DNA of 64,000 bases, taken from assembly GCF_900176375.1 (NCBI RefSeq), contig NZ_FWYF01000004.1, positions 62,001 through 126,000 on the forward strand. Reading direction: 5' to 3'. The position numbers and the translations under genes are program-made. The notes under the pieces were generated by a model, which saw only the letters and a program-made list of their open reading frames with translations, did not search any database and was not told the DNA's origin. Below are positions 56,864 to 57,475 of the stretch, piece after piece (position 1 is the first letter of the stretch; each line of letters begins with the position of its first letter). The DNA comes from Reichenbachiella faecimaris. Its GTDB lineage: Bacteria; Bacteroidota; Bacteroidia; Cytophagales; Cyclobacteriaceae.

Positions 56864-56936
56864 CGCGGGATGGAGCAGTTGGTAGCTCGTCGGGCTCATA
56901 ACCCGAAGGTCGCAAGTTCGAGTCTTGCTCCCGCTA
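56864..56936 (+). tRNA. Initiator tRNA-fMet (CAU)
   Basis: A 73-base cloverleaf. Position 1 (C) does not pair with the last acceptor base, and the anticodon stem has three G-C pairs (GGG/CCC) around CTCATAA; both are initiator hallmarks. The D-arm is GGAGC/GCTC-like, and the T-arm is GCAAG/CTTGC. CCA is not encoded. It is the parent of the tandem repeat units that follow. Confidence 0.92.
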
Positions 56937-56942
56937 CTAGAC

Positions 56943-56974
56943 AAAGGCTAACATGAAAATGTTGGCCTTTTTTT
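56943..56974 (+). terminator. Intrinsic terminator of tRNA-fMet
   Basis: A 12-base stem (56943-56954 with 56959-56970) on a GAAA tetraloop is followed by a T-run. The same terminator recurs in each repeat unit. Confidence 0.93.
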
Positions 56975-57006
56975 GTTTCTGACCGAGAATGATTTTGGAG
57001 AGTGAA

Positions 57007-57475
57007 AGTCGCAAGTTCGATCATTCCATGACTGGTTTGCTCCCGCTACTAGATAAAGGCTAACATGAAAATGTTGGCCTTTTTTTGTTTCCGACCGAGA
57101 ATAATTTTGGAGAGTGAAGGTGCAAGTTCGATCATTCCATGACTGGTTTGCTCCCGCTACTAGACAAAGGCTAACATGAAAATGTTGGCCTTTTTTTTCC
57201 GACCGAGAATAATTTTGGAGAGTGAAAGTCGCAAGTTCGATCATTCCATGACGGGTTTGCTCCCGCTACTAGATAAAGACTAACATGAAAATGTTGGCCT
57301 TTTTTTATTTCCGACCGAGAATGATTTTGGAGAGTGAAGGTCGCAAGTTCGATCATTCCATGACGGGTTTGCTCCCGCTACTAGATAAAGACTAACATGA
57401 AAATGTTGGCCTTTTTTTATTTCTGACCGAGAATGATTTTGGAGAGTGAAAGTCGCAGGTTCGATTATTCCATGA
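57007..57475 (+). repeat. Tandem array of truncated tRNA-fMet 3' ends plus terminators
   Basis: Four full units follow the tRNA: 57007-57118, 57119-57226, 57227-57338 and 57339-57450 (112, 108, 112 and 112 bp). A partial fifth unit runs at 57451-57475. Each unit has the tRNA variable-region/T-arm start (GTCGCAAGTTCGA), a short insert containing TCATTCCATGA, the acceptor 3' strand (TTTGCTCCCGCTACTAGA), the GAAA-loop terminator and a ~35-base tail (GACCGAGAAT...TTTTGGAGAGTGAA). The tRNA's own downstream sequence is the zeroth copy. None of the units can fold into a tRNA, because the D- and anticodon arms are missing. Units 3 and 4 share substitutions in the terminator stem and the insert. Confidence 0.93.

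Follow-up and report, generated by a model that had tools for sequence, protein, structure and literature searches.

Tandem array behind the initiator tRNA gene

In the stretch of the Reichenbachiella faecimaris genome analysed here (64,000 nucleotides; contig NZ_FWYF01000004.1, positions 62,001 to 126,000; hereafter the window), an intact initiator tRNA gene is followed by a tandem array of interrupted copies of its own 3′ end. On balance the array is probably a tandemly expanded derivative, non-autonomous or decayed and without a nuclease, of a class of tRNA parasites whose complete members carry a small GIY-YIG endonuclease gene. At tRNA-Met genes the class has a recognisable anatomy, comprising an intact tRNA, a terminator, an optional GIY-YIG gene, a 3′ copy broken by an insert, the acceptor strand and a further terminator, sometimes repeated, and the foreign insert in the broken tRNA copy is often a perfect palindrome. 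The window array is tied to the class through this anatomy, not through sequence.

Table 1. Features of the tRNA-fMet locus, in window positions
Feature	Position	Strand	Basis
Intact initiator tRNA-fMet (CAT)	56864..56937	+	ARAGORN; Rfam RF00005, 64.8 bits
Terminator hairpin of the tRNA, 12 pairs	56943..56970	+	terminator scan
Broken copy 1 (T-arm start, 16-nt insert 57021-57036, acceptor strand)	57008..57053	+	
Terminator hairpin of copy 1	57055..57082	+	terminator scan
Broken copy 2, insert 57132-57147	57119..57164	+	
Terminator hairpin of copy 2	57166..57193	+	terminator scan
Broken copy 3, insert 57241-57256	57228..57273	+	
Terminator-like hairpin of copy 3, one A.C mismatch	57275..57302	+	sequence; absent from scan output
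Broken copy 4, insert 57353-57368	57340..57385	+	
Terminator-like hairpin of copy 4, one A.C mismatch	57387..57414	+	sequence; absent from scan output
Truncated copy 5 (T-arm start CGCAGG and beginning of insert, without acceptor)	57454..57477	+	

The tRNA (Table 1) has a C1-U72 mismatch, three G:C pairs in the anticodon stem and no encoded CCA, which we take to identify it as an initiator. Tandem Repeats Finder (TRF) delimits the repeat at 56925-57477, with a period of 112, 5.0 copies, 94% matches and a score of 966. The acceptor core, CTCCCGCTACTAGA, occurs at 56928 within the tRNA itself and again at 57040, 57151, 57260 and 57372, giving spacings of 112, 111, 109 and 112, and the T-arm starts of the array copies lie at 57010, 57119, 57230, 57342 and 57454. 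An earlier inspection of the same DNA (the sequence-only reading) had described four full units followed by a truncated one, a count that the TRF result and the positions of acceptor cores and T-arm starts bear out. It had also taken the copies for repeats of the tRNA 3′ end; the T-arm start and acceptor are indeed present, but in each of the four full copies 16 nt, TCATTCCATGAC(T/G)GGT, stand in place of tRNA nt 59-61 and break the T-loop. The terminator assigned to each unit likewise holds in part, as a simple scan of the region found three (0.8 expected by shuffling), those of the tRNA and copies 1 and 2, but the stems of copies 3 and 4 carry a mismatch. Units 1 to 4 are 94.6-97.2% identical in pairwise comparison, and unit 5 is 88.3-92.0% identical to them. 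Because the units differ by substitutions of their own, a simple assembly artefact is disfavoured. The array is real, and it is the one such array in the genome.

The insert arms in the window copies are only 4 bp long (p 0.11-0.16 per copy). The T-arm fold gave p values of 0.07-0.08 for copies 3 and 4, which form one long hairpin, 0.42-0.43 for copies 1 and 2, which do not, and 0.37 and 0.79 for the two versions of the related unit in a congener, G005; the fold is significant in none of these, and selection on the T-arm hairpin as RNA is not supported. Downstream of the array, window positions 57540-57670 resemble a stretch beside a tRNA-Ser GIY-YIG locus of G005 (L064), and the shared sequence, GATTTCTCTGGTCGTACCTCCCGACGAA, is by eye probably a dispersed repeat.

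GIY-YIG genes beside tRNA genes

The anatomy outlined above is seen with its gene in G020, a genome of the same family, where tRNA-fMet is followed by 361-bp units that each comprise the tRNA 3′ end, a terminator, a GIY-YIG ORF and a palindrome-broken tRNA copy. Two of the GIY-YIG ORFs are open and the third is damaged, and their assignment was confirmed by Pfam.

Relatives of such genes were surveyed with an alignment of four tRNA-adjacent proteins, and the best 80 of 507 relatives among the matches listed in genome contigs were analysed. As the query proteins had been picked for lying next to tRNAs, the survey describes a subfamily. Within these best 80 of 507, a tRNA lay within 400 bp of the gene in 60 loci, each with one on the same strand (L147 has an opposite-strand tRNA as well), against an expectation of about 1 of 80 if 50 tRNAs per 4.5 Mb are assumed. 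In 55 of the 80 the gene lay between direct repeats of 18 bp or more. The chain scan detected a broken copy of a local tRNA in 45 (2 of 80 in the reversed-tRNA control), and in 39 of the 80 loci there was a broken copy whose insert had arms of 6 bp or longer; the remaining 35 had no broken copy under the chain rule. The break fell in the anticodon/variable region in 41 of 70 copies at these loci, in the D-arm in 22 and in the T-arm in 7. Across 97 loci, the window and Escherichia coli included, the longest insert arm averaged 6.1 compared with 3.6 in shuffles, the window value being 4; these loci yielded 105 rows, some of them doubtful chance chains, and the four E. coli copies, scored against both tRNAs, account for seven. 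By the record titles of the best 80 of 507, the tRNA-linked class is found mostly in Bacteroidota, and also in Ignavibacteria, Balneolaceae, Patescibacteria and other lineages. Copies of tRNA-Val twice broken by TCCGTCAGCTGACGGA-type palindromes stand beside GIY-YIG genes in Draconibacterium and Maribellus (L129, L140), and an elongator tRNA-Met in another genome of the window's family (L080, G014) has three broken copies upstream, each with CGGCACGCGTAGTG in the anticodon loop.

Within the genus, tRNA-Arg(TCG) is accompanied by a GIY-YIG element and its palindrome-broken tRNA copy in G001, G004 and G007, and the element is absent from G000 (the window's own genome), G002, G003, G005 and G006, where the match is limited to the tRNA stretch. 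The flank on one side, whose gene is presumably sucC, is matched in each of the seven genomes set against G007. At two of these loci (L035 in G007, L049 in G004) the GIY-YIG frame continues into the intact tRNA gene, so the predicted proteins have tRNA-derived tails, with a C-terminus ending in VVQLDRIPDFGSGG.

A PF01541 search of the window's own genome gave no match near the array, the matches being at C6:855879, C4:501744, C3:410880 and C6:1073236. Its three short GIY-YIG genes are 28-44% identical to the tRNA-adjacent ones, and the loci fetched for them contain no tRNA. By eye, the genes at C6:855879, C4:501744 and C3:410880 (L031, L032 and L033) sit amid REP-like palindromic repeats such as GTCATCACCCGGTTTATCCGGGTGATC. 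The 11 long GIY-YIG ORFs (451-607 aa) from this genome and its relatives had no tRNA within 400 bp, and one of them has two tRNAs ~1.3 kb away.

Survey of initiator tRNA loci

The frequency of such structures at tRNA-fMet was assessed in 94 loci, which are the best matches of sequence searches rather than a random sample (of 99 entered, 5 had too short a downstream stretch and were removed; both L010 and L079 come from G006). A 14-nt acceptor match with at most one mismatch has an expectation of 0.0 in 100 base shuffles of each of the 94 loci. By this rule, which misses the diverged unit of G005, an extra 3′-end copy is present in 9 of the 94, the window included, and the description of the arrangement as unusual at an initiator tRNA is therefore partly right for this non-random sample of the order. 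Six of the 94 have a GIY-YIG gene downstream in the same orientation as the tRNA, not counting L208, where the match is on the opposite strand. Three loci have both features (P = 0.011, 94 loci); the other three with GIY-YIG have no copy under the rule, and L200, scored as copy-free, has a degenerate copy visible by eye.

Broken copies also occur without the gene. The chain rule, applied to 92 fMet loci after removal of the window and the six with GIY-YIG, found nuclease-free broken copies in nine (L030, L093, L098, L100, L114, L207, L209, L213 and L221). In one of these, L209 (G230), an independent array without the nuclease, two clear copies stand 104 bp apart and two more are by eye worn, and in L098 (G074) the break is at nt 59-61, the same place as in the window. 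The two forms are combined at L116, from Mangrovivirga halotolerans (Cytophagales), where short nuclease-free units of acceptor tip, terminator and spacer flank a GIY-YIG unit on both sides. A tandem array of another composition was seen at L013 (G017), with five tRNA-fMet among tRNA-Glu copies, mostly 189 bp apart.

Distribution in the genus and the attachment-site alternative

Eight genomes of the genus, the window's own included, were compared. G005 has one diverged unit, 69.8-71.6% identical to the window units, whose T-stem still pairs although it differs from that of both tRNAs and could be a relic of an earlier tRNA. The match in G004 is to its island copy only, and G001, G002, G003, G006 and G007 gave no match to the window units. 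The upstream flank is common to the congeners, the nearest to the window being G005 (81.7%) followed by G002 (79.5%). The simplest reading is a gain in the lineage that the window shares with G005. Neither the plasmid nor the phage collection contained a match to the units, and the exact spacer pattern of the array had none in the genome contigs collection.

The G004 copies bear on the proposal, made in the sequence-only reading, that the array consists of stacked attachment sites left by repeated integration at tRNA-fMet, an origin that we regard as highly improbable. Islands do use tRNA-fMet in the genus; in G004 attachment-like 3′ halves without the insert lie at C1:391194 and C1:422817, ~58 and ~90 kb from the tRNA at C1:332717, and the second is beside an integrase domain (C1:421360-421881). 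The three G004 loci (L005, L076 and L077) have the appearance of an island or islands at tRNA-fMet. The window resembles tyrosine-integrase attachment sites in that a tRNA 3′ segment is repeated downstream of the tRNA, but its copies are interrupted, devoid of cargo and 109-112 bp apart, and no integrase is nearby: the nearest match to PF00589, the family searched, is at C3:29486-29962 on the contig, ~89 kb from the array, which begins at C3:118864. Because all the full copies are broken in the T-loop, while the true island copy of the congener is unbroken with an adjoining integrase, the attachment-site origin is not supported.

Comparison with known systems

A close parallel in layout is provided by the tandem repeats behind tRNA at E. 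coli tyrT/tyrV (RtT RNA, RF00391; rttR, tpr), in which AAGGTTCG(A) is followed by a ~67-nt insert with the hairpin CGTTGCCGCAGGCAACG and then by AATCCTTCCCCCACCACCA. E. coli K-12 has four such broken copies, one between the tRNAs and three after tyrV, 178 bp apart, and the break is at the same place in the T-loop as in the window. The E. coli repeats differ in their hairpin-rich insert, in belonging to tRNA-Tyr, in the encoded CCA, and in the annotated RNA and protamine-like ORF, and no GIY-YIG gene is annotated in the tyrT/tyrV stretch. The RF00391 covariance model found four RtT matches in the E. coli control and none in the window locus (L001), and membership of the window array in the RtT family was rejected on this ground despite the similar layout.

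The E. coli repeats also suggest that the units could form a small-RNA locus, each being transcribed and ending at its own terminator like rtT RNA, a function that we consider improbable for the window; short RNAs had also been put forward in the sequence-only reading. The similarly laid-out E. coli repeats carry the annotated small RNA rttR, and the folding of copies 1 and 3, terminators included, exceeds that of shuffles (z -3.64 and -2.59). With the terminator left off, the stretch gives a z of -0.36, so the folding signal is due to the terminator. Against such a function, the tRNA itself has a terminator behind it, the region has no more promoter-like sites than chance would give (1 found, 1.3 expected), Rfam matches nothing in the array except the tRNA, and the terminator stems of copies 3 and 4 are damaged. 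Conservation argues in the same direction, the G005 unit being ~70% identical and no unit having been found in the other six congeners.

A second parallel is the phage GIY-YIG nuclease SegB. According to PMC13096335, SegB cuts inside tRNA genes with a preference for RAWTSGAAC, and tandem tRNA-Tyr amplification needs SegB with an intact active site together with recombination genes; an older review gives the target as a tRNA intergenic region (PMC2988022). The system resembles the elements discussed here in having a GIY-YIG gene beside a tRNA and a tRNA segment amplified in tandem, but it is a phage system whose 718-bp unit contains full-length tRNA-Tyr and a truncated segB, whereas the window has no nuclease. 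By our own reading, the reverse complement of RAWTSGAAC fits the tRNA T-loop, and the window's GTTCGAGTC fits with one mismatch.

Palindromic inserts are also reminiscent of CGTC-tagged REPs, which PMC3733652 describes as having no dedicated transposase; copies 3 and 4 read CGTCATGGAATGA on the reverse strand. The window insert differs from these REPs and is not dispersed. As a candidate dispersed REP of its own genome it was rejected, since of its 8 genome matches (at most one mismatch) 5 are in the array, and the backward-read control gave 5.

Proposed origin of the array

In the mechanism that we infer for the class, with SegB as a precedent by analogy, the GIY-YIG nuclease would cut the tRNA gene, and repair against an element ending in the same 3′ part of the tRNA would add a unit and leave one tRNA intact. 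The cut site would be gone from the broken copy. At the window array the nuclease gene would either never have been there or have disappeared, and the ~110-bp units may then have multiplied through unequal recombination. What the comparisons establish is the anatomy, its recurrence, its association with GIY-YIG genes and, at another tRNA, the gain or absence of such an element among congeners; the cutting, the route of repair and the loss of the nuclease are proposed on that basis.

A nuclease is dispensable if a plain, accidental tandem duplication of the tRNA 3′ end and terminator acquired an insert and was later multiplied by slippage or unequal crossing-over, without function, a history that we regard as rather unlikely though clearly in contention. 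The similarity of units 1 to 4, the patchy presence in the genus and the units that have no GIY-YIG-related ORF all fit this account, as does the variation in rtT copy number between Salmonella genomes reported in PMC2658671. The duplication account leaves unexplained the foreign inserts that break tRNA arms at independent loci, E. coli tyrT among them, and the broken copies that frame GIY-YIG genes. The slippage copies put forward in the sequence-only reading are plausible for the expansion, with units 95-97% alike, but do not explain the T-loop insert or why this anatomy recurs with GIY-YIG genes and in E. coli.

Several observations also weigh against derivation from a GIY-YIG element. The window units have no trace of GIY-YIG, their insert taken alone is not significantly palindromic, and T-arm breaks are a minority at GIY-YIG loci. 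The intact tRNA should remain a target, and its escape from cutting is not explained by the model. Moreover, SegB amplifies the full-length tRNA and not the tRNA end (PMC13096335).

Significance

A search of titles and the beginnings of abstracts in the open-access literature found no description of this class in bacterial chromosomes. The data suggest that GIY-YIG elements at tRNA genes form a class that copies the tRNA's own end plus its terminator, and the phage SegB work offers an assay for nuclease-driven amplification of tRNA segments. In a bold reading, the class is a unifying one for tRNA-gene GIY-YIG elements, and would provide a possible origin for tandem tRNA 3′-end repeats, those at E. 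coli tyrT/rtT included. We put forward tentatively, as a proposition that falls somewhat short of an even chance, that a widespread GIY-YIG class of bacterial chromosomes parasitises tRNA genes: a small nuclease would settle next to a tRNA, one tRNA would be preserved intact, and the copies left behind would have part of an arm exchanged for a short self-sparing palindrome; nuclease-free arrays such as that of the window, and the E. coli tyrT repeats, may then be its fossils.
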